Part shown: positions 1 to 56,017 of the stretch, piece by piece
Position numbering within the stretch: the stretch's first letter is position 1
How the letters are laid out: every line of letters begins with the position of its first letter
NCBI GenBank assembly: GCA_015039465.1
Contig: MU130381.1
Location: 343,807 to 407,806 of the forward strand
Origin: Phlegmacium glaucopus
Lineage: Eukaryota > Basidiomycota > Agaricomycetes > Agaricales > Cortinariaceae
Length of the DNA: 64,000 nt
Reading direction: 5' to 3'
Notes under the pieces: generated by a model
Databases searched by the model: none
The model's input: the letters and a program-made list of their open reading frames with translations, nothing else
Told to the model about the DNA's origin: nothing
Made by a program: the position numbers and the translations under genes

Positions 1-285
1 AAAGTGTGAATTGTAACTAAAAAAACTAAAATCTACCACACCTATCTATTTCTGATCTACTTGTAAAGGCTTACAAATCTATATTTTTTTATAATTGGTT
101 ACACTAAAGAGCTCACAAACCCATGTTTTTTTGTCAGTAATAGTCACATTTATTTCTTTCTAAATCTACACTAAAAGGCTTATTGATCACCATAAAGGAC
201 TCACAAATCCATGTTTTTTTGTAAGTAACGATCACATATATCTCTTTGAAGCTACACTAAAAGGACTTACAAATCCACATTTTTG
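1..285. repeat. AT-rich imperfect tandem repeat
   Basis: Three to four diverged units share the phrases ACACTAAA, a stretch like CTTACAAATC or CTCACAAATCC, and CATGTTTTTTTGT. They recur at about 60, 101, 170 and 251. No coding sense was seen in either strand. I cannot assign the repeat to a family. Confidence 0.6.
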
Positions 286-299
286 GTACTAAATGCTCG

Positions 300-1650
300 T
301 ACTTATTGCTGTCATGGATTTCCCAACAGTTAGGAAAAAAAACCTTATGAAGGAGAAGCCGTCACGAGAAAAGCAGTTACCACGACTAGCTGACCGGTGG
401 ACTAGTGGGGGTGATGGTAGGTGAAAGAAGGAGAAGGGACGGCGAGACCACCACCACCACCAACGGCCAAGCAGTAACACCCAGTGGAAAGAGAAGAACC
501 AAGGCCGATTAGGTCATCGCCGGCGGAAGAGCTGCGACGTTGAAGGAAGGGGTAAGGAAGGGAGTAGTAGGAAGGGAGGTTTGAGGAGTTATAGTAGGGG
601 TAGGTACGGTAAGGGTAGCAGGAGTAAGGAAGGTTTGAGGAGTTATAGTAGGGGTAGGTGCAGTACGGGTGGGAGTAAGAACAAGGGTAGGAGGAACGGC
701 TAGGAGAGGCCGTACATGTACGATAGGGTCAGTGACAGTAAAGGGAGGAAGAGTGAGAGTGAGAGAAAGAGTGGGAGTAGGCGGAAGAGTGGGAGTGGGA
801 GGAGGTTGAGAAGAGGTAGTAGGACCAATATAACTAGACTCCTACGCTACGTGACAAATATCGTCGCGGCCAAAAACTCGTAGCTGAAGTAATAAAGCTC
901 ACAACGGGTCAAAGGAAACATCGCAGCATTCACGAATAAGGATCTTTAGCGGAAACATTACACATCATTCATTATCAATTGCCTCTTAATTGCACTTTTG
1001 AATGATGAACACGCTGAAAGGGATGCCGATGATGTAGAACTTCGGCGGTCAGCTGGGGGCTACCCTCTGGGCGTACACGGTGTTGTAGAGTTTGTCAACT
1101 GATATTGTTCATAGTTGCCACATGTCACTTGCTTTCTTCTTGTCTCTTCTTTTTTGAATGAGTCGTTACTCTTATGTCGAAAAATAGCAGTCGATCTGGG
1201 TATCGCACAACTTCCAAGTACTAAAACGACCCGGTGCGTTAGAGAAGGTTAAACAAAAGATACCCAAACCGACGAACTTCAAAGAAATCAACCAGTTAGA
1301 GGCGACTTGTTCTCATTCGACATATGTGATTAGTTTGAATTTCTTTAAATGATTGGAGCGTCTGAACGCTCGTAACGTCGGTAGAGCCGTAGAAAGCGTG
1401 GTAAACTCCTCCGTACACAGACCTCCCCGAACTGTCCGAAGCTTCGACCATAGCCAGCCCACGAACTCAACCAGCAGGAGAAGCATCGGCACCTGCTCAG
1501 GTAGACTCATAAGAGGACACATCGACGTTAAAGAACCCCAGCCCACGGACGACTCCACCTCCTGCAGAAACCATGTAAACGATTTCATCGCTACAACCAT
1601 CAGAAATTCCAACCCTAAATTCCACCCTTTCGGGGTCGTGAATCTTTAAT
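300..1650. other. Gene readable only in reversed, non-complemented order
   Basis: Neither strand codes here. Reading the printed bases from 1620 down to 328 in reverse order, without complementing, gives a coherent fungal-type gene. Exons lie at about 1620-1356, 1303-1161, 1100-1005 and 940-328. The introns between them begin GTTAGT, GTAAGT and GTAAGT and end TTCAG, TATAG and CTAG. The product has a Ser/Thr/Pro-rich start, a helical middle, the block NKHLRRYKGNWATLEIMK, and a long acidic tail with DGDDIEEFG twice. It then has basic runs (TKKRKV, GKRKKV, PKRKYSKKK) and a stop. Two in-frame TGA codons sit where CGA is expected. The last intron junction is off by one base in my model. The GA-rich tract at 540-830 is the acidic tail. 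The protein resembles uncharacterised Agaricomycete proteins; its function is unknown. Confidence 0.75.
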
Positions 1651-1828
1651 ATATCGCCAGCAATTCCAACCCCACACAACGTTAATTGGTGTTTTATCCA
1701 CTGTTTACCATTGTAATTATTTATATTTAAGGTTAGAAATTACATAACAAACTAATGTAATTAATGGCATTGGTTCCACCACAAATTAGTGGAAATTCAC
1801 CAAAAATTGCTGGAAATTATGATTCTTT

Positions 1829-4800
1829 TTGATGGAATCTGGGGTTGTTTTTTACAACCCCCCTGGTCTCACAGTGACACTGGACAAATCTGACTTCTAC
1901 ACACTACAAAAAATTGAGCCTGTACGAGTAGGAGGGGTTGGCAGAGCATCTGTGATGGCTATAGGGATGGGCGACATCCACCTTCACATAGGACCCCACA
2001 CCACACTCATACTCCGTAACGCCCTCTATATCCCTGAGGCTACAGTCCATCTCATATCAGTAAGCGCGATCACAAAGGACGCAAAAATCAAAATTCTCTT
2101 TGACGATACATCATGTTGTTTTATCCAAAAAACAACCAATAAAACAATTGCTCACGGTTCCTTGACTTCAAAGAAGCTGTATTTGCTCAACCTACATGAC
2201 GCAAGTACTGAGCATGCTTTTGCTGTCACCCAAAGTCCTGACATGGAAACTTGGCATCGCCGTCTTGGCCACACCAACTACCAGGCCATCCAGGACATGG
2301 CTCGCAGGGGCATGGTCAAAGGTATGCCCACTACTTTCCCCAGCGCACCTTCTAAATGTGAATCGTGCATCCTCGGAAAACAGACTAGAACACCTGTTCC
2401 AAAGACACGTGAAGAGGGGCCAGGGCATCGAGCGACCAGGAGATTGGAGAAAGTATGGGTAGATCTTACCGGTCCTACTGCTGTACCGTCCAGAAATGGA
2501 AATATATTCATCATGAATATCATAGACGACCTCACATCTTACTCCTGGTCACTCATGTTACCAAACAAAAGTAGTGCTTTTCCACAGCTAAAACAATGGG
2601 AAGTTGCAAGGGAGAACGAGTTGGGGATAAAAGTCGGAACATATAGAATGGACAATGGTGAACTAAAATCAGATAAAATGGAAGCCTGGCTATGATCAAG
2701 GGGAATCCAACAGGAGTTTACTGCCCCTTATACCTCAGCACATATTGGCAGGGTCGAACGATTACATCGCACGCTCATGGGAAAAACTCGCTCAATGCAA
2801 TCCTATGCCAAGTTACCTCCTTTTCTATGGGAAGACCTATACTCAACGGCAAATCATCTCCATGTCCGAACAATCAGCAAAAATGCATCTAAAACCCCAT
2901 TCAAACTATGGTACGGACGAGCACCCAACTATTCCTACGTACGGGAGATCGGATGCAATGCATACATCTTAATTCTTAACAAACACAACCCCAAAATATA
3001 CGAACGATCCATCAAATGTGTCCTTGTCGGCTATGAAATGCAATCCAAGTCTTACTTGTGTTGGAATCGAGAAGATCAGCGGATGTATAAGTCGTATCAT
3101 GTTAAATTCATTGAGAGTCATGAGACCTCAGTCCCATTGATCACTCCGGATAACCCTGACAACCCTCAGGAGGAGTTACTACCATCCACTATCAGTGATA
3201 TCTTTCAGACGGCATCACCAAACTCGCAACCATGTGATGATGACAAAATAATATTGCCCAATCACGATCCGAATCCCAATCACGATCAGCAACAACTACA
3301 GACTTCTGATGTTTCCGGAAATAATGTTGAAGGACAATTTCAAGCTCATCCAGGGCAGCGAAACCTATCAATATTTTCCGGACCGCAAGACTAAATGATG
3401 CAATTCAGAAATCAAAAGATAGCGCACAACGAAAGGCTGAGGAGAAAGGGAGAAAGAAGACTTTACAGGATATATGTGAGGAGGAGATTCGAAACGATCC
3501 AGAAGTGGTGGAGAAGGCCGGCATCAACGAGCTATGTGATCTGTATGAAAAACTTGTTATCGACGATCATCTTACCCCAACAGAATGAACGGATATCCTA
3601 CCTTCAGCCATAACAAGCCAATCTGAGGTTGATCCCGCTATCTTGGACTTTGAAGATACACCTAACACATGGGAACAAGCGAAGATATCTAAACATGCAG
3701 ACAAATGGGAGGCTGGCTATTGAGATGAACTGAAATCACTTAATGAGATGGGTGTTTACGATTTAATACCACCTACTGATGTCCCAAAGGGATGCAAAAT
3801 CCGCAAAGGACGACCGGTATTCCACTTAAAACATAATGAACGTGGCGAACCAACTCGTTGGAAGGTTAGACTGGTATTCAAGGGATTTGAGCAAATTTAT
3901 GGACGAGATTATACATCGACTACCTCACCTACTGCACGAATGGAATCTTGGCATATCCTCTTGCATATCGCTGCCTGCAAAAACTGGGATATTCAACAAA
4001 TCGACATCAAAACCGCCTTTCTCTATGGACTGTTACCTGATGACGAGGTACAGTACATGCGGCAGCCAGAGGGATTTGAGGAACCAGGAAAAGAGACATG
4101 GGTATGGAAACTGAAACGGGGTTTGTACAGGATGAAGAGTGGACGGATCTGGAACCAGACAATGAATTCCGCGATGCTCTCTTGGGGATTCACACAATTA
4201 TCCTCTGAATCCTGTATATATTACAGGAAACATCCCGAGGGGTGTGTTATCACTGCTGTTCATGTTGATGATTTCCTCTCCATTGCGCATCCAAAATCCG
4301 AGAACACTCACTTTAAAGAACAAATGAGGACTATATGGACAATTTCCGATCTGGGCGAACCAAAATTCTGCGTTGGCATTGGCATTTCTCGAGACATCTC
4401 CTCCAAAGCTATTCACTTATCCCAGACAGCTCTCATTGATAAAGTGGTCTCGCAATTTGGCCAAATAGATGCATTTCCCATCTCTACTCCGATGGACTCA
4501 GGCCTGAAGCTACGTCGCCCTGACCCAAAGAGTATCTCTACTGTTGATAAAGAACGTCTCATGAAATTACCTTATAGGTCCCTTGTCGGTTGCCTCATAT
4601 ATCTCTCAGTCGGCACTTGACCAGACATTACATACACAGTACAACAACTCTCACAATTCCTCAACAACTTCTCCTATGCACACTGGAACGCAGCCATTCG
4701 GGCCGTACGCTATTTTAAAGGCACACGAGGACTGCAGCTATGCCTGGGTGGGAACAACCCCATTGAGCTTCGAGGTTTTACAGACTCGGACTGGGCCAAC

Positions 4801-34299: not shown

Positions 34300-36717
34300 T
34301 TAGGTTTTTAACCGTCGAACCTCCCATCGCACCTTGGCGGTTGTAGATGTCAGTTTTTCCTTGCCAATTCCTACATCCTCTCCATGCATTCCGCCTCCAA
34401 CATGTCCATGTTCATGGTCACGAAGGAGCACAATGACCTTCCCACTACTTTCGTCCCAATGATCCAACCTTCTTAATTTTTTACACTTCCACGCCAACAC
34501 CCCAGCGATCTCATCGTTCTTGCGCATCCGACTACGTTCCATCATTGATAGAGACATTTGGGTATGGGTGTGGCCCTGTTTAGAGGTATGGGCCGACTGA
34601 GAGACGGGGCTGGCATCGCGAATGATGTTGAGTCCTGGGGTGGAAATCGGGGCCTGTCCGTTTGAGTAGGCAGTATTGTTGTTAGTATTGGAAGGAGTGT
34701 TGGTGGTAGATGTCACTGAGGACACCTCGTAGAAAAATTTGACGCCGTGCATGCTCGTTAAATCAGGTAGGGTAGCCAGCAATTCTGCCCATTCTGCCAT
34801 ATTAGTTGCGGGAGCTGCTACGCCTTTTTCCGGACTTGAGACATGACGCTGAGTTGCTGCGGCACCGCCAAGTCGTTTACCCACGTCTAGATACTGAACA
34901 TTTGGTATGCATGCAATCAATTTTTTGATGTCATCCATATCATGCCAGCCGACCATCTCGATACGACGGATAGTGTGGGCTGTTTGTTTGAGGTTGGAGA
35001 GAAAGGTAGAATCAGAGATGGAGCGTGATGAAGACTGTTGAGCGCTATTCCCATTCCCGGAGAGTTTGAAACCTTTAACGGATTCTAGAGGCCGAGCACA
35101 AGAGGGGGATGAAGAGGAAGAGGGAAGAGGACATTCCAATATGGCGTTGATTATTTCACGTGATGCCTTAATTTCACGGAGATGGGGTAGAGAACCCGGT
35201 GATAGTTGTAATGGTGAAGTCGGGGTAGCACCAGCGCCGCCGCCCAGGTTGATGCTAATATCCATGTGAAGAACTTCCAGGATACTATGTGCTGATAAGA
35301 AAGCAGAGGGCGCCAGAGATGATGCGCAACGCAGGTTCGTTAGAATGAGTGAGGTAAGATTCGCCCAACGGCTGTACATCAAGAACTCGTCCGCCAAAGG
35401 ACGGGCTCGAAAGGGCGTTCCTTGGTGACCTATCGATGTTGATAATCGGGGGCTGATATAGGTGATCTCAAGATCCTGAGAAATGAGATTAGGGTCAAGA
35501 TAAATAGAGGAAAGGTAAATTGATACCTTGAGGTTGATACATCGGTGGAGCATCCCAGAGATGTGACTGAGCTCAGGTTGTTTGGCAGCGCCATAGCTAT
35601 GGGAAGTGGAACGGAAAGTAACGCTCTTCATCTCACCCAACTGGAAAAAGGAGAAAACCAGTCAGGAGAATATAGGATTGAAAATGATGGGCAACTGATT
35701 TACTATATGGTTAGGAACACGGGTCAGTACACCTTGGCATGAATTAGTGCTTTGTCCTCTTTCATCGTTCTCTCCTTCACTCTCACTCTCACTCTCACTT
35801 TCTCTGTCCCCCTGATCTGCTCCATCATCGTCCTCGTCCACCTTGGGCGCAAACACCAGATTATCATAGATATCCATGACCCGGAGGTTAACAGCCCGCA
35901 TCATCAGCGTTGGCCACACATGAGCAATAGAAATCGGAGAATGATTGCACGACCACTGAAATTCCCTCAGGCCCGTCATTCGAACGAGAGCAGCAGCAAG
36001 GTATTTTTCCTGCTTAACGTGCATGCTCAGTTCATCGTCTGTAGATTCTAAATCGGTGTCTCCTTGTAGTATATTTTTCGGGACCAAGATGCCCCTGCCC
36101 TTGGTAAAGTTACCGCCGGTGCTCGCAGAAGAACGTTCATCCAAGATCTCAAGCCTTCGTACGTTCCTAGCCAAAGAGCGATGTAAAATGAGGTGATTCC
36201 AGACGCTGATAGACGAAACTTTGCATCGGATAAGACGATATTCAAAGTGTCGCGGGAATACTACACCATGTAGTCTCTTACATCCCAAAGCGACATTCAA
36301 AAGATCTCTGCGAGAGTCGATGTGAAATATGATTGCATCAAGGATTTCGGTTGGTTGGTTGACCAAGTTCACGATAGATGCCTGATTTTGAGCATGCTGA
36401 GGAGGTGCAAGAGCACGCAGACCGTGATAGACAAAAGGATCGATGATACTGACAAGGTGCAAAGACAGCGTATGCTCAGCCGGAGTCAGTTTATACTGAC
36501 ACCCACCGATACGTGAGGGAAGAGAAGTAAGAAGTTTAAGAAGAACACTGAGTGCGCTGGTGGGGTTCGTGCGAGGATGAGCGCTCAGATTGGTGTTGAT
36601 CGTTGTCTGGAATTGGGGGTTGAACGTTTTTCGTAGACGACTAGTGGAAATAGATGTTGCAGCGCGTGGAGGTCGACTATTTAAATGCGGGTTGGACTTT
36701 GTGGTACTGGGTGCCAT
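34300..36717 (-). CDS. F-box protein with leucine-rich C-terminal part
   Basis: This is probably a substrate adaptor of an SCF ubiquitin ligase. Two exons (36717-35731 and 35640-34300) are joined in phase across a 90-nt intron with a GTACTG donor and TTCCAG acceptor, giving 775 residues. An F-box-like stretch lies at about residues 115-160 (NQPTEILDAIIFHIDSRRDL...CKRLHGVVFPRHFEYRL). Leu-rich irregular repeats follow, with an acidic/serine tract (DRESESESESEGENDE) at the exon 1 end. The C-terminal half resembles fungal F-box proteins with degenerate LRRs. It converges with the EZH gene (171 bp apart) and diverges from the GT17 gene. The substrate is unknown. Confidence 0.8.
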
Positions 36718-46015: not shown

Positions 46016-46241
46016 TTCCACGATGAGGAAACACGAAGTGTTGACTCATCTAAGGATAAGATAAAATAAATAGAGCCAGGCAAGACCCGGTGACGTCTGA
46101 TCATAATACTAGCAAATCACAGGACAAGATCAGACGCAACGATAAGCATCGACCTCCATCTTTTTCTTCTGGTCTTGCTGGCATCGTCTGAGCTTTATCA
46201 GATAAATTTTTTCTGAACTACCTTTGTTATTTATCTCCGAA

Positions 46242-47744
46242 ATGGTCGACATAGCGCAAGATCAACATCCGATGCCAGCAGACCCCCTTCCGCAAGATCC
46301 TCAAGATCAGGTTCCTCATGACAATAATCTAATTCCACCTCTGCTTATACAACCTCGCGTTCGACGTACCCATAAAGATGATCTTATTTCATCTCTGCTC
46401 AGTAAGCTCCAATTACGTGAAAAACTAGTTAAGAACAAAGAAATCGAAGATCAAAATAAGGCTAGGGAGGTGAAAACTTATAACCACCACCTAGATCCTT
46501 TTGCTTATCCCGAACCTGGTTCGGAGACTGCATCTTTTATCACTATTGATGATCTGGATGTAAAGGATCTTAAGGATCCATCCATTCTCGCTCGTTTTTT
46601 GAACACTGTTCCAGACTATCTTTTACTTCGCATCACACGTGAAAACAGAGCAGAGAAAGAAGAGCGAGACAAGAGGAAAGTTGATGATCTTATGACCTCT
46701 GCATGCGAAGCCTCTCAAGACGCCAAACGGCGTCGTATGGATGGCAGCAAGGCAGCCGAGCGCATTGTTGGCATCCAACGTGCTATCGAATTTTCCGAAA
46801 TACTGTTTACCACTAATGTCCATGTCCCTATTCCTTTAACTTTCTTTCGTAATGCCCATTTGCGCTACATGATTGATCATGCGGCTACGCTGCCCACTAT
46901 AAAGTCAAACCCACTCCCGGGCGAGACTAAGGGCCAGTTTATTCTTAACATTGCTGATCTCGTAAAAGGGACCAGAGATTTCAGAGGCTTCGGCGAGGAA
47001 CTCTCGCTGGGCTTTGGAGAGTGGTCTGAAGCAGCCGAAAACTGCTTCCGATTTCACCAGATGCAGGACAGAGATGGCAATGCAGGCCCATACGCTCGCT
47101 GGTGGTCCTCCCATTTTAACTTTTTTAATACTCAGGAAGACAAGATCAGTCAGTATGATGCCTGGAAAGATCTTGAACTCAAGTTACGTCGCGAGTACCG
47201 CACTGAACCCACGAATTTCGACATCAATCACTACGCCATGAAATACGAGGCGGCAAAGACTACATACGAGCTTAAGAGCCTCATCGAGAAGCAAAACCTT
47301 CCCAACAGGTCGGAGCCGTCATACCGCAAAGACAGCTCCTTTCGACCTTCTTTTCGTGGAGGCAGGACCGCCGGGTCATCAACCCAGTTCCGCGATACAC
47401 GTAACCTGCCCACGCTACAGCCATTTCACTCAGGCAACAGACAGTCGTCTCACCCAGTCTGTTGCATCCTCTGCGGTGAAAAAGGCCATACAGTCGGCAA
47501 ACACTATGGTGATGGCAACTCGCCGACCAAGTTCCCCGACGGCAAGCCTACTTGGGCAAAAATCACAAATGGCAGTCTCTGCACCCCTACCGCCAAAGAA
47601 ATCTGCATTAATCACAACGTCAGCGGTAGTAGTGCCGTCTGCTCCCATTCTGAAGGCGCGCGAGCTCACATCTGCTCATACTGTGGTTCCAAATCCCACT
47701 ATGCCTTCGCCTGGGTCTGTCGTACCCGACCTACCTTCGATTAA
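46242..47744 (+). CDS. DIRS Gag-like protein
   Basis: This nucleocapsid-type protein packages the element RNA. It starts MVDIAQDQHP; an earlier in-frame ATG at 46224 would add six residues. It has a Pro/Gln-rich start, a coiled and charged middle, and a conserved block FRGFGEELSLGFGEWSEAAENCFRFH. Two Cys/His clusters near the end (CCILCGEKGHTVGKH, CSYCGSKSHYAFAWVC) resemble zinc knuckles of DIRS Gags. The frame is intact and overlaps the RT frame, so RT may be made by frameshifting or re-initiation. Confidence 0.82.
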   Translation: MVDIAQDQHPMPADPLPQDPQDQVPHDNNLIPPLLIQPRVRRTHKDDLISSLLSKLQLREKLVKNKEIEDQNKAREVKTYNHHLDPFAYPEPGSETASFITIDDLDVKDLKDPSILARFLNTVPDYLLLRITRENRAEKEERDKRKVDDLMTSACEASQDAKRRRMDGSKAAERIVGIQRAIEFSEILFTTNVHVPIPLTFFRNAHLRYMIDHAATLPTIKSNPLPGETKGQFILNIADLVKGTRDFRGFGEELSLGFGEWSEAAENCFRFHQMQDRDGNAGPYARWWSSHFNFFNTQEDKISQYDAWKDLELKLRREYRTEPTNFDINHYAMKYEAAKTTYELKSLIEKQNLPNRSEPSYRKDSSFRPSFRGGRTAGSSTQFRDTRNLPTLQPFHSGNRQSSHPVCCILCGEKGHTVGKHYGDGNSPTKFPDGKPTWAKITNGSLCTPTAKEICINHNVSGSSAVCSHSEGARAHICSYCGSKSHYAFAWVCRTRPTFD

Positions 47745-49988
47745 CTCTTTTCTTTCTATTGCTGCCCCAAATTTCCTTTGTTATCGTGATTTCTCTGATT
47801 CTATTGTACACCGAGACCCCTTAATTATAGATGAAGACTCTTCGGAGTTCCACGATGATATCTTTTCCAGAATCGTTCATCCTTACGATACCGATGCCTT
47901 TGAATTCTTCCTTTCTAAACATAACTTGTTATACTTTTATTCTCTTTTAGTTACAAACCTCAGAAACGGATTCCCTTTAGGTGAAATGCCCCCAATCACA
48001 GACACCATCATACTTGAGAATCACCAATCTGCTCTCGAATATCCCGACATCATTAACGAATATTTAATCAACGAAGTTGATGCTGGACGCATGTCAGGTC
48101 CATTTTCACGCCAAGATGTCGAAAAAATCCTGCGTGGTCCATTTTTCTCCTCCCCGTTCCTCATTTCCGTCCAACCCCAACAACCTGGCATGCCAGACAA
48201 ACTTCGCGTTTGCCGGCACCTGTCAAAAGGCGACAAGAACAATCCTTCTACAAATTCCCACATAAATAAAGCGGATTTCCCTACACGTTTTGACACAGCC
48301 TCGAAAGTTGCTGATATTGTAGGTTTCTTCACTTTCCCTGCCCTTCCATCTTCCTTCCTTCCCAAATGACGGGTATCACCTGTCCATCCTTACCAGTCTC
48401 ACCTCTGGTGGACTCAGTGTTACGAGCTTCACCTCTGGTGGCCGTACTTCTAGGAGCTTCACCTCTGGTGGCTCTTAGGGCTTCACCTCTGGTGGCCATA
48501 CTTCTGGGAGCTTCACCTCTGGTGGCTCACCGTCATGAGCTTCACCTCTGGTGGCTCGTTTTCGCAAGCTTCACCTCTGGTGGCTTGTCGCTACAAGTTC
48601 CTTTTCCTGGAAGTGGACCACATGTCCCTCTTCTGGCGCTTCTATCTGTTTCTATGTGTTCTAAGCAGTGACAGCTGCCATATATTTTCACAACAGCCGA
48701 AGGCTGTTTCTCCCTTCTCCCGCTCACTGGCATAACCTTTCCCACCTTTGACACCATTCTAATTCCTGATCCTTTTCTCGTACATCAGGTGGCTCATGCT
48801 CCTCTGGGTACTCAAGCCTGCACCTTCGACATCCGTAAATTCCATCGAACATGTCCCATTATTCCTGCCCATAAACCATGGCTCGTTGCTCAGGACCTCT
48901 CCCACAAATTCTACATTGATCATACCCACCCTTTTGGAGCCGCAGCAGCAAGCAGCAATTCAGGTATGATCGGTAACGCGATCGTTGACATCTGGCAGGC
49001 AGAGGATGTGAAGCCCGTGTTGAAGTATGAAGACGATCTCAAGGCCTTTTGATTTCCAATTCCGGGCGGCATATTTCATCAAGATGGCTTTGATTATGAC
49101 TATGATCGGGCGGAGGCCCTGCGACGTATTGCCCCCCTCCAAGTGCCTTGGCATGAGGACAAAGGTGATTCTGAGTTCGTCTTCATCACCAATTTTATCG
49201 GTTACCGATGGGACATACCCAACAAGCGGGTTAGTCTGCCTCAGGAGAAGCGGTTGAAATTCTATAACCGCGTTCGTATATTCCTTGACCACTTTAATGG
49301 CCATCCATGTTCTTTACTCGATATTGAGAAAATCCATGGCTCTTTGTGCCATGTCGCTTTCATATATGCTCAGGGACGCTCCCACCTCCCATCACTTTCA
49401 AATTTCGCAGCAAGTTTCAACGATAACACATTCACGCGGCGCTACCCACCACACTCCCTATTGTCAGACCTTAAGTGGTGGCTCCACACACTCGATGCTC
49501 CAGAGTTCTATCGTGAGCTTCGGCCTCGTGGTCCTACTCAAGACCTAGGACTTTTTGTTGATGCCTCGACATCTTGGGGTATTAGGATTATCATTGCTGG
49601 CAGATGGCTGGCTCTGAAGCTCCATGAAGATTGGAAAATTGAGGGTCGTGATATTTGCTGGCTGGAGACGGTTGCGGTGGAGATCCTCATCTACGTACTT
49701 GAAGCTATGGGAATCCGAAACGCTACTCTCCTTATACACTCTGATAATCAAGGAACGATTGGCTCTCTTGACAAAGGCCGCAGTCGAAACTTTCACATCA
49801 ATCTCTCCATTCGCCGCATATACATTGTACTCGCTGCTCACTTCATAACACCCGACCTTGCATATATTGCCTCTGCAGATAATCCAGCAGACCCCATCTC
49901 GCGCGGAGAATTGGGATCTGTTGAGACACGCATAACTACCTCGTTCAGCCTGCCTGACGAGCTCCAGCATATCTTTCTTTATGTCTGA
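47356..49988 (+). CDS. DIRS reverse transcriptase-RNase H (one stop, one intron)
   Basis: Its role is to copy the element RNA into DNA. RT begins near FRNGFPLGEMP-like sequence (LRNGFPLGEMPPITDT) and runs to ADFPTRFDTASKVADI. A 470-nt GT..AG intron (48319-48788) then splits it in phase before VAHAPLGTQACTFDIRKFHR. The catalytic box reads KYEDDL (about 49025-49042). An in-frame TGA follows at 49050-49052, probably CGA before mutation. RNase H lies at 49540-49910 (GLFVDASTSWG, LLIHSDNQGTIG, ADNPADPISRG). The true start is unclear because the frame overlaps Gag. This copy cannot make a full protein without readthrough. Confidence 0.82.
48400..48583 (+). repeat. Minisatellite inside the RT intron
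   Basis: Seven copies of CACCTCTGGTGG, most within GAGCTTCACCTCTGGTGGC, are spaced about 25-33 bp apart. The core can pair with itself (CCACC against GGTGG). All copies lie inside the intron at 48319-48788. A related ACCTCTGGTGG is found once more in the 3' region at about 51826. Confidence 0.85.
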
Positions 49989-51665
49989 GGGTACCCTATT
50001 GCCTTTCTCGGTGGCTAAGTTTGCCATCGAGGGGGTTGGAAAGGGGACAGGGCGTCTTGACTCAACTCATCCTGTCCCACCGCGTCTCTCCAACTCCCAA
50101 ATAGCTACTGCATTCGAACCTTGCTTTCCTATAAATTTATTTTCCACTTCACAAGTTTTTTCCTCCAATTTGTATCCACAGAGTTTCATCAATCCGCATT
50201 GCATTTCTGATATTTGTACTAGTACCGTACCTGCCGCACCTGCTTTCCCTGTTTCTTCTTCATTATCCATAGACTCCCCCTTTTCAAATCCTTTTTTCAT
50301 TGCCGAAAGTTCCTCTTCGCAGCCAGCTCTCACCATCTTACCTGCCTCCGGTCTTCATCCACCATCACTCTCTCGACCCCTGACGAGGACTCCCATGCCA
50401 TCCCGTAGAATTCGCAGGCCCCTGGCGGACCAGATCCTGACACCGAGTCCACTCCGTCCCCGTGTTTCAGCAGCTGACCGTATTTTCTCATGGCATACTC
50501 CTTATGGGCTATTACATGATGATGCGCTTCTTGCTGACCTGCCACCTGCCTTGGTTGAATCTGCTAAGATGTCGATCACGGGTGCCCTCGCTGCCTCTAC
50601 ACGATCGACGTATGCCTCCGGTATCCTCAGATTTAACCAATTTTGTGACCGGTGGGATATTTCTGAAGATGCCTGGATGCCTGCTTCTTATGCCCTCCTA
50701 TGCGCATTCATTGGCGAATACAAAGGCTCCGTCTCTGGGAAGACAATCCGATCCTGGCTGTCTGGTGTCCGCGCTTGGCATCTTACCAACCATGCGCCCT
50801 GGTTTGGAGATGACAAATGGGTCCAGATGGCCCGCACATCTGCAAACAAAGAGGGCTCACGCCACAAGCGTGCCCTCCGTGCTCCAGTCTCCATCGAACA
50901 CCTCCTGGCCCTGAAGAACGCTATCATTATGTCTTCCCCATTCCATGCTGCCGTCTGGGCCGTGGCACTGACCACTTTCTTCGGATGCCGCCGCCTTGGC
51001 GAGACGACCGTCTCATCCATTTCCTCCTTTGATGCTAGATATCATGTTCTTCGCTCTGCGGAGTACGTTTCTTCTTCTATGATCTCTTACAGTTACTTAC
51101 ATGTCTTCACAGTGTTACCTTCCAGACTTTGCGAGACAACTCTCGCTCAGCCTCTTTCCGTATTCCATGGACCAAAACCACTCGTGAGGAAGGCGCTTCC
51201 GTGATCATCACTGCCCGTGATGACCAACTCTGTCCCTGCGCTGCCCTACAGAACCACCTGGATACCAATAAAGGCATTCCTGGTGCCGCTTCATTGTTCG
51301 CATACTCTACTACAGATGGTCAGTGGGAGCACATGACCAAGCACCGGTTCCTGGTTTTCTGCAAGAGCGTGTGGACTGCGGCACATCTTGCGCATGTTCT
51401 TGGCCATAGCTTTCGTATCGGTGGTGCCGTCGCACTGCTCCTTGCTGGAGTGCCGCCTGAGATTGTTGCAGCCACTGGAGGGTGGTCCTCACTCGCATTC
51501 CTTTTGTATTGGAGACGGATGGAGGAGATCCTACCTATGAGTACTTCCAAGGCTTACCGGAGGTCCCATATCGATGAGCTGGCCAGGATTTTCGAACAAT
51601 TTTGTGTCAATAATAGTATTCCTTCTACACTGCTTGCCTCCTCAGACCGTGTTCTCGAATTATAG
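49981..51665 (+). CDS. DIRS tyrosine recombinase
   Basis: It integrates the circular DNA copy by site-specific recombination. The start overlaps the RNase H end by 8 nt. After a Ser/Pro-rich leader comes a SAM-like core-binding domain (STYASGILRFNQFCDRW, WLSGVRAWHLTNHAPW). The catalytic domain follows, with FGCRRLGE (first Arg), HSFRIGGA (His-x-x-Arg), GGWSS and LYWRRM (Tyr). An intron at 51063-51112 (GTACGT..CACAG) joins the two open parts in phase. All catalytic residues are present, so it looks intact. Confidence 0.88.
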
Positions 51666-51955: not shown

Positions 51956-53034
51956 GACGGCTGTCTTGGCGTCGAGTCGTCCCGACGTCTCTTGGTAACA
52001 TTTGTGTATCTGCATGAACTATGACTATAGCTGACTTCAAAAACTACCGTCGTTTTCCCAAATGTACTGCCTCGTAGCCTCGATTAACGATTGACCCCAA
52101 AGGATTGACAACCGTATGGTACTCTACTCATACTAATTTTTCTCGCTATGGTTCAATGAGTTGCATGATGGTCGTGGAACGGGATCGTAGGTTGGGTGGT
52201 GAGCGAGGAAGTGGTTGTACGGTCGACAACAGGTGGTGCTCTTGTCTAACGAGGTAACAATAACAACCATGGACCTATGTGCCACCGAGAGTTGGTTTAA
52301 GCCCAGTCTCCATATACAATAGCCCACTCACCGGAGGCCGGACGGAGTCGACAAGAACTACGACGTGTCAAACCCACTACCAGAGCATAGGTATGGGAGA
52401 GAATAACATGTACAGGGGGTAAGTTCTTCCCCCGGAGCTGCGGAGCTGCTCGGAGAGACACCCGTCAAGAGAGATGCTTTTCTCACCACGGAACGAACAA
52501 GAGAAGCCGAGAGGGAGTTCTTCCCCCCGATCCGAATACCGAAAAAGCCTTCGCTACAAAAGAGCGATCGAACACTCCACCCCTACACTCCAAATCGCTG
52601 CCCCTACACTCTCAGCGGCGGGCTAGAGGTAGGGTGGACGGCACCAAACAAACGAATGGTGTCTACAGTGTGAAACGATTCGACACTGCATGACAGAGAA
52701 ACCCGCCAGCTTTCGGGTGAAGAAAATGCTGCTATAAGTACTATTCTATTCTTATGCTCTTTCCCCTCCCCCCTTCTCTTTCCCTCGCCTTCCTTCCCGT
52801 CTCGTCCTCTTTACTTCCTCCCTACCAAGTTCCGACTTGAACCCTCTTTTAGAGCCGCAACTAACTTTTTTGACTTACACTGAGTGTTTTTCACTGCACC
52901 TATCATTCATGACTCCCGGGTCTATAAGGTTTCGGATTTGGGTCTCAACTTGCGCTTTGGCACGAAGCCTAGCTTTAGAACCTGTTCAGTCTATTAAGTC
53001 CCTTAGTGGCACTAAGCTCCGCTACCGGCCGTTT
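51956..53034. other. Region without readable gene, low-complexity parts
   Basis: Neither strand shows a gene. A C/T-rich run lies at about 52755-52815. The phrase TCTATTCTTATGCTCT occurs at about 52744 and again at about 53325. Part of this region probably shares the reversed, non-complemented orientation of the next feature, but I cannot fix the limit. Confidence 0.35.
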
Positions 53035-53323
53035 TTCAGGACTCGCAAACCTATTCGTCTACCGTAGCACATCTCCGGCTTTTGGTTAGATCGACATGGT
53101 TTGTGACTTCCCTCATCCACCCACCCAGTCTTTTTTAAATAGACTATTTCGAGTCTGCTACGGTCGTTCTGGTCTTCTTTTTCTACCTCCAGCTACGAAT
53201 AAGCAACGCAGACTAGAACAGTACATAGTTATAATACTAGTCTGCAGTTGTCCAGAACGGACCGAGATACATAAAATAGAATAGGAATCTACTCAGTTGT
53301 GAAGCACAAAGGAGTAGCACCTT
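53035..53323. other. DIRS termini in reversed, non-complemented order
   Basis: Read backwards without complementing, 53323 down to about 53127 matches the left end of the DIRS element (46016 to about 46215), with the first 53 bases identical. Bases 53100 down to 53035 match its right end (51890-51955), with the last 59 bases identical. About 26 bases lie between. So the content is an internally deleted DIRS copy written in mirror order. The ordinary reverse complement does not match. Confidence 0.9.
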
Positions 53324-53563
53324 ATTCTATTCTTATGCTCTGTCACATAAAACTTATCTTTCCAAAGCCTTCCTTACGTCTAGACATTTTATTCCTACCT
53401 ACAATTCCCTTGTCTTATAAGACCATAACTTATATGACCCACACAGACTCTTGAACCGCCCAGCGCATGACTACCGGGTCTATAGTCTTTAGGCTAAACT
53501 TGAGTTTGACAAGCCTAGCTTTAAAACCCGTTAGTCTTTAAGGCCCTTAGGGGCAAAGCCCGC

Positions 53564-53952
53564 NNNNNNNNNNNNNNNNNNNNNNNNNNNNNNNNNNNNN
53601 NNNNNNNNNNNNNNNNNNNNNNNNNNNNNNNNNNNNNNNNNNNNNNNNNNNNNNNNNNNNNNNNNNNNNNNNNNNNNNNNNNNNNNNNNNNNNNNNNNNN
53701 NNNNNNNNNNNNNNNNNNNNNNNNNNNNNNNNNNNNNNNNNNNNNNNNNNNNNNNNNNNNNNNNNNNNNNNNNNNNNNNNNNNNNNNNNNNNNNNNNNNN
53801 NNNNNNNNNNNNNNNNNNNNNNNNNNNNNNNNNNNNNNNNNNNNNNNNNNNNNNNNNNNNNNNNNNNNNNNNNNNNNNNNNNNNNNNNNNNNNNNNNNNN
53901 NNNNNNNNNNNNNNNNNNNNNNNNNNNNNNNNNNNNNNNNNNNNNNNNNNNN
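53564..53952. other. Assembly gap (389 N)
   Basis: This is a run of N. The adjoining left sequence is in the suspect mirror-order region; the right side is normal. Confidence 1.
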
Positions 53953-54246
53953 TCACACAATGGACGATGGTATACACGACACGACAAGCCCCAAGTCACA
54001 TTGCCTATTTGTCAACATATCTGTACTCGGTCTTCATCTGCCTTTCCTTTCCTTTACGCTCACGATCTTGGTGGGACTTGGATCCATGCTCGCTGCTTGC
54101 TGCTCGTAATGTAGCTCCCCCCGATCCTGCTGTAAAATAGGTCTGTTTCCTTAACACTTTTTAAGCTTACAACGTGTACATCTACCTCTATATAATCTAC
54201 ATTGTTTTCACCATGTTTCAGAAGCTCCAAGACATCAATCACTGTC

Positions 54247-56017
54247 ATGTCAACACTCAACTCCCCCGCTTTCGCTGGCATTTCCAACGTTATTGAGTCC
54301 ACTACTGTCACTTTAGATGAAATGGGTGCTATTGATGCTGACCTTGAGGATGAACGAGGCACCGTCCCAGACCTTAGCTCTGATGATTTTGAGCCTCATG
54401 AACAAGCCGACAACAATGGTTCATCAGCCTTGATATCGCAATGGGAGCACACCATCCTAGGTGCTTCGAAAGGGGTATCAGATGGGACACATCAGGAGTA
54501 CTGCCGGTAATGTTGCTTCAAAGTTGACTGCTTCCCAGCTAACTATTATTATTATTAGACTTATAGAAGCTTGTGCTTCATTTCTCGTTTCTAAAGGCCT
54601 TATAAAAAAAAGAGAAGAATTTTTTAGCCAAACTCCTCCCAAAGAAGCACCTACGCTGATCATTGCATGGATTATGAATGAGTGAGTCGCCCAACTTCTT
54701 TTGGCCATTTACGCAACTGATCACTCCATCACAACTAGTTGCGATGCAATCAATCTCGATGGGACTGCCAAAGACTCCAGCACCGTTCGCAGCTCTTACA
54801 CCCATGCCCAGAAAATGCATGCGAGCATGACATATGTCTTTGGCAGAATGTATGGTCTCGGCTCACTACCATGGCACTATGACAACACACAGGACCTGAT
54901 GGTTGGAAATCCGTCCGTTTCGGAGAAAGTATCCAGCTATATGGTCAGCTTGAGGCGCAGGAAGGTAAGAATTAAATATTTCCATCATTGAATTATCAGC
55001 ATCAATATTCACCCCCATTCTCTAGGTCCAGGCAGGTGAAGTGGCCAGCAGTGCTCGTGCCATAACTCCGGTGCATTCCAAGCATTGTTTATCAACTAAT
55101 CACACTCAACCTCACTCCTCACTCTTTCTTCTGTTCTGAAATCCTGCAGGAGATTATGGGAGCACTCTACGATCACAACCACAAACCTGAGAATTGGATT
55201 ATTCACCCATATGCACCCGGAACACGTGGCAGTTCCTCTGGCGATGAGGGATTGCACACATGGGGTGGTCCTCTCCACCGTCGGGCTGCCCAAGCAATTT
55301 ACGCAATTGCTTTTCTGTGCCTCCTTCGAGTCGACGAGGTCCTCAAGATACAGAGACATCACATCCAGTGCATAGATTCCGAAGACAAAATTGTTCTGAC
55401 CTTACCCTTCAGAAAAACACATCAATTTGGACGTGAGTGCATTCAATTTATTTATGTTCTTGCTGGATTGAATCAACCTTGCTTTCGAATGCCAGAAATC
55501 AAGCCATTCCATCTTTACGCACTGCCCATCGAGGAATCTCATCTTTGCCCAGTCCGAGCAGTTGCCGACTGGCTTGAGGCAAGTAGAATTTCAACAGGTT
55601 ACCTCTTTCGTCGGATGGCTTCTGGGGATAGGCCATCGCAGAAAGACACACCCATGGTATGCCATAATTCTTGCTCTATTGTGACTTATTTTAATTAGCA
55701 AACACCGTTAGACATCAGAGCAGTTCCTCGAGATCTTTCGCAACAATCTTATTGACATTAACATTGACCCAACCCCATATGGTACCCACTCCTTCCGTCG
55801 GGGTGGCTGCCAATATCTGGCCTCTGTTCGACGCTGGCTTCTTCGTCGTATTTGTGAATATGGTGGCTGGAGTGAAGAGTTTTCGAGCATGACAATTGTG
55901 AAGTACTTGATCTCATGGAATGATGATCCAACCGAAGCACGGGAGGACTATTTCAATCCAGCTCGTCAACCTGCTGTTATGTGCTATCACTGTGGCAGGT
56001 CATGTCCTTGTGGTTAA
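54247..56017 (+). CDS. Crypton-like tyrosine recombinase, intact
   Basis: This is a DNA breaking-rejoining enzyme, probably of a mobile element. Seven exons (54247-54506, 54559-54681, 54739-54964, 55026-55070, 55150-55432, 55496-55656, 55712-56017) join in phase to 467 residues. Catalytic signatures are LLRVDEVLKIQ (first Arg), GTHSFRRGGCQYLA (His-x-x-Arg), YGGWS and TIVKYLISW (Tyr). It ends CYHCGRSCPCG, a small Cys cluster. Unlike its neighbours it has no stop or frameshift. It converges on the SAP-motif gene at 56218, and the two may form one element. No inverted or direct ends were found, as expected for Cryptons. Confidence 0.85.

Follow-up and report, generated by a model that had tools for sequence, protein, structure and literature searches.

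Hybrid genomes in the JGI mycorrhizal study, which discusses Phlegmacium glaucopus, were assembled with ALLPATHS-LG and then patched with PBJelly, according to the accessible part of that report (PMC7550596). Where a gap remains open, PBJelly lengthens its flanks, and it takes any run of at least 25 N to be a gap, as stated in the available section of its account (PMC3504050), and the excerpted benchmark of its fills from simulated reads gives a mean identity of 88-95% (PMC8848313).

Here, we analyzed a stretch of 64,000 nucleotides from the P. glaucopus assembly (the window), whose letters 1-1581 are mirrored in place, that is, reversed without being complemented. We attribute this with very high confidence to an assembly artefact, in which a gap-closing step would have written flank extensions reversed and uncomplemented. 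The mirroring almost certainly reflects faulty software and is not a biological feature. Two features define the left end of the window.

Positions 1-1581, no strand assigned: mirrored block 1, reversed and uncomplemented in place, at the right-hand edge of the gap C147:338135-343806.
Positions 1582-1877, forward strand: contig in normal order, with forward matches starting at 1582 in seven of the nine loci that have one.

An ungapped comparison of the reversed block 1 with C74:107887-109467 of the same genome revealed 98.5% identity over 1581 positions, and the corresponding comparison with C175 gave 98.6%, also ungapped over 1581 positions. The same letters in printed order are 26.3% identical to C74, and their complement is 24.2% identical (both ungapped). 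The reverse complement scores 0.06% in the ungapped comparison, a value that is low by construction, versus 98.5% for the reversed string, and an ordinary inversion was rejected. In a search of the same genome (60.5 Mb, 259 contigs) with window 300-1590 reversed, nine loci in normal order matched at 88-99% (C175, C74, C153, C127, C81, C176 twice, C138, and C22), several of them in pieces, as did part of C8, and four weak rows were also returned. The query as printed matches only itself, a 595-bp piece of C8, and short pieces from ~1582 onward. The border follows from local alignment to the normal copies (matches over 40 bp), where, for instance, C74 reads from window position 1581 down to 1 and then directly from 1582 to 1877; the forward match starts at 1587 in C153 and at 1574 in C81. 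On its other side, base 1 of the window adjoins a scaffold gap of 5,672 N (C147:338135-343806), located just left of the window. Because the window opens at this gap edge, the contact was out of sight of the earlier note, made from the letters of the window alone.

That note had placed a mirrored gene at 328-1620. The mirroring is real, whereas the borders have moved: positions 1-327 are mirrored too, and from 1582 the order is normal. The gene itself is laid out as follows.

Positions 328-1581, no strand assigned: reversed reading of a fungal gene, with exon limits drawn by eye.
Positions ~1581-1356, 1303-1161, 1100-1005, and ~950-940 down to 331: exons of the reversed reading, by eye.
Positions 330-328: TGA stop of the reversed gene.

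The gene is readable in the reversed letters, as had been proposed (98.5% reversed versus 26.3% printed against C74), and it is annotated in normal-order copies of Phlegmacium (Cortinarius) glaucopus. The acidic tail with its double DGDDIEEFG, the basic runs, and the terminal TGA are all present, and at both in-frame TGA codons, which had been assigned to Arg positions, the C74 copy does have Arg. The three introns described earlier held up in part. Donor-like sites of the reversed reading lie at 1355, 1160, and 1004, and introns 1 and 2 fit the splicing of the predicted protein P0122, with intron 2 also fitting P0121 (both by eye), but the third acceptor (CTAG) disagrees with P0121 splicing, again by eye. 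When the C-terminal 199 residues encoded by the C74 copy were searched against 5.77 billion proteins, six reached E <= 0.001, and three of these are hypothetical proteins of Phlegmacium (Cortinarius) glaucopus (BYT27DRAFT_7335841, BYT27DRAFT_7254181, and BYT27DRAFT_7257879). In the C74 gene, the first eight codons fall outside block 1; at the window locus they would consequently be inside the N gap. The tail of the gene is purine-rich and contains a direct repeat, which invites the explanation that purine-rich repeats, once reversed, resemble an acidic protein by chance. The probability of such a coincidence is practically nil: it is refuted by the genome matches and by 98.5% identity over 1581 positions, and the annotated relatives match only the reversed string of window 1-1581 or, equivalently, its other strand.

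A second mirrored block, absent from the finding of the earlier note, borders a gap within the window.

Positions 51963-53563 (1601 bp), no strand assigned: mirrored block 2, at the left-hand edge of the 389-N gap.
Positions 53564-53952, no strand assigned: scaffold gap of 389 N; C207 has 382 bases between the same flanks.
Positions 53953-55752, forward strand: right edge of the gap in normal order, with no mirrored block and a 100% forward match to C207:165784-167583.

Block 2 matches other copies when reversed, and in forward order yields only one weak row (C129, 75% over 104 bp). Its border was placed from the contiguity of C151 (209001/209002), C205 (324785/324786), and C80 (206464/206465), which predicted that window position 51963 corresponds to C207:165401. 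This was borne out to the base, with 32 C207 bases matching the reversed window exactly up to C207:165401 and diverging at the next base. Both window blocks are mirrored, sit in place, have a defined inner border, and touch a gap. As a separate observation, C207:164641-167583 is a second copy of window 52501-55752, 100% identical where compared, which seems to span the 389-N gap.

Mirrored blocks recur elsewhere in the assembly, on eight scaffolds (C147, C8, C81, C144, C10, C35, C176, and C74), with lengths between 381 and about 2530 bp. Among the ten N-gap edges inspected, eight carry a mirrored block and two are in normal order.

C147, right edge of the 5,672-N gap (window 1-1581): mirrored.
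C147, left edge of the 5,672-N gap (L027 1268-2135, 868 bp): mirrored.
C8:145374-145968: mirrored; the block ends where the N begin.
Left edge of the 389-N gap (window 51963-53563): mirrored.
C81, right edge: mirrored; the reverse match covers L033 1895-2492 only, and the block probably extends to ~3721.
C144:2629219-2630384: mirrored; matched in three pieces, with the middle stretch presumably mirrored as well.
C10:13015-13400: mirrored; backward partner of C22:14366.
C35 ~195148-197677: mirrored; matched at 195148-196028 and 197501-197673, the part between them being assigned to the block as probable.
Window 53953: normal edge.
C22:14366: normal edge.

Each of these eight mirrored blocks runs up to a gap. 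Sequence matching led to four of the edges (C8, C144, C10, and C35), whose abutting gaps came to light afterwards; of the five edges on gaps chosen on other grounds (C147 left, the two edges of the 389-N gap in the window, C81, and C22), three are mirrored. The edge at C22:14366, a candidate for mirroring, was rejected as normal, its mirrored partner being C10:13015-13400. The gap at C35 was forecast within 2 kb and found 1,782 bases on. At C144, a first forecast of the gap end at ~2630020 failed, and a forecast revised from a closer counterpart (~2629225) located it at 2629218. Where compared, the blocks at window 1, C8, C81, and window 51963 are 98.5-100% identical to their nearest copies, with almost no indels, and wherever both borders can be traced the blocks are in place, such that the normal order reads as the reversed block followed by the contig. 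Because mirroring affects the two edges of the C147 gap alike, we rejected a scheme in which bases are written in extension order on one side only. Inside the left-hand C147 block, L027 1761-2135 is a ~375-bp repeat with many genome copies, which appears to be an insertion with a ~9 bp target duplication relative to C22:23868-23876.

These data bear on whether the mirrored order could exist in the DNA itself, through parallel-orientation joining or copying by a novel process, whereas the earlier note had said only that mirroring real in DNA would be without precedent; such an origin finds no support here. The mirroring is genuine, the letters are of high quality, and the phenomenon recurs on several scaffolds, as such a process would allow; however, all eight mirrored N-gap blocks reach a gap, and the traceable ones occupy the place of their own normal order. 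To our knowledge, no enzyme joins or copies DNA in the parallel sense, given strand polarity, and we regard this origin as extremely improbable. A second alternative places the mirroring in data handling downstream of the public assembly. One peptide from a mirrored copy as printed, searched against annotated proteins, returned one candidate and none that was significant, in keeping with this idea. Conversely, blocks of differing length follow, across eight scaffolds, the borders of gaps and 25-A runs, which neither window cutting nor file copying would know, making a downstream origin very unlikely. The same note had also suggested a segment reversed without complement in assembly, gap filling, or file handling. 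This proposal gains support from the in-place geometry, from gap contact in eight of eight blocks, and from recurrence on eight scaffolds, which together point to its gap-filling branch, and the fault would have arisen either during gap filling itself or at a later stage of handling.

Two mirrored sites contain no N and instead adjoin a poly-A run. In C176, two mirrored blocks (381 and 985 bp) flank a run of exactly 25 A; the C176 insertion, which lacks N, had been considered as a counter-example to gap contact and was dropped because the 25-A run adjoins it. In C74, a 25-A run has 621 mirrored bp on its left and normal order on its right; with the block reversed, the two sides share 77 bp. 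Across four such sites, the run measures exactly 25 at three and 27 at the fourth, and two of the four (C176b and C72) have no mirrored side detectable in a flank comparison covering matches of at least 60 bp other than self-matches: the right side is normal at both, and the left side matches one locus forward at C176b and has no match at C72. The poly-A runs with no mirrored side found, of 25 and 27, lie at L035 4708-4732 and L048 998-1024. In 35 partly overlapping sequences, runs of A or T of at least 10 have lengths of 10 (seven runs), 11 (three), 14 (one), 15 (one), 25 (three), and 27 (one). A genome search with the C176 insertion returned at least 87 rows in printed order, with the best 40 of 738 candidate places scored, and ~25 A lie within 75 bp of the match at at least nine places among the matches listed; the places matching this insertion may be mirrored as well. 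PBJelly would leave a 25-base placeholder at overfilled gaps, and the 25-A runs are perhaps former 25-N placeholders of this kind.

Several controls address mirroring away from gap edges. Window 2000-3799, in normal order, belongs to an element at 1829-4620 (forward strand) that we take to be copia-like with broken open reading frames; in the genome it gave 29 forward rows, its own among them, and two reversed rows, both of which are the gap-edge blocks at C35 and C144. When the window was compared with the sequences examined, 132 reversed matches other than self-matches reached 50 bp or more, 117 of them inside the two window blocks, and the other 15 pair with mirrored partners (two at C35, ten at C176, two in window block 2, and one at C144). 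We also scored letter order from k-mers in 800-bp windows (k = 4, 5, and 6), after masking all copies of both blocks in the training set. All 32 windows lying within the two blocks scored negative; of the 1184 windows elsewhere, which had contributed to the training set, 19 did so at k = 4, 14 at k = 5, and 7 at k = 6. The lowest outside score was -5.3, versus block means of -13.5 to -14.9. This argues against another long stretch of mirrored letters in the window. Two other regions of the window were annotated in passing.

Positions 46224-51204, forward strand: consecutive long open reading frames, presumably resembling a tyrosine-recombinase (DIRS-like) retroelement.
Positions 35665-36717, reverse strand: F-box-like protein; 264 relatives reach E <= 0.001, and of the best 120 listed, all that carry an organism name come from mushroom-forming fungi.

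The source of the mirroring that we infer is a flank-extension step. A gap-closing step would extend contig ends into scaffold gaps that it fails to close, and each extension would be written in reversed letter order without complement, ending up in the right place but mirrored. Unclosed gaps would keep their N, and overfilled gaps would seem to retain a placeholder of 25 bases, converted at some later point to 25 A. The letters would be identical whether a sequence was reversed and left uncomplemented or a read from the opposite strand was complemented and left unreversed, and the slip could be either. We lean toward PBJelly as the responsible step: it is named by JGI for hybrid genomes in the study that discusses P. 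glaucopus, in the part of that text at hand (PMC7550596), and both open-gap flank extension and overfilled gaps are documented for it in the accessible pages of its description (PMC3504050). A different gap closer or an in-house patching script is a plausible though less favored source, given that the 98.5-100% identity of the four compared blocks exceeds the 88-95% in the excerpted PBJelly fill benchmark (PMC8848313). If PBJelly was used, error-corrected reads or later polishing must be assumed; otherwise, another tool must be. A literature search for such a mirroring fault, in PBJelly or elsewhere, found no report among the matches listed.

Whether a systematic and unreported fault mirrors many or most unclosed-gap flanks in this genome, and in other genomes from the same pipeline, is a question on which we are evenly divided. 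If it does, mirrored kilobases lie unnoticed in public genomes. BLAST, gene finders, and repeat maskers check both strands but never the reversed string, so that mirrored stretches pass for unique non-coding DNA; they conceal gene ends and may mask true overlaps across gaps, such as the 77 bp at C74. Aligning reversed gap flanks to their own assembly provides a simple check for any genome project, and the letter-order score can be used where a second copy is lacking. Since the fault recurs and does not appear among the literature matches listed, it merits a report to the owners of the assembly.

Compared with known systems, the blocks resemble PBJelly output, in which read-derived sequence is added to contig ends beside an open gap, the gap is shortened, and 25 N serve as the gap unit, although the available part of the PBJelly account does not describe mirrored output (PMC3504050). 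Inversion misassemblies likewise leave a wrongly directed segment at the border of a contig, but as a reverse complement, whereas the blocks here are reversed and uncomplemented. Mirror repeats (H-DNA motifs) have mirror symmetry on one strand in common with the blocks; in the consulted portion of the source, they are polypurine tracts in real DNA (PMC9171763), whereas the blocks described here measure 0.4-2.5 kb, carry gene or repeat content, and lie at gap edges.
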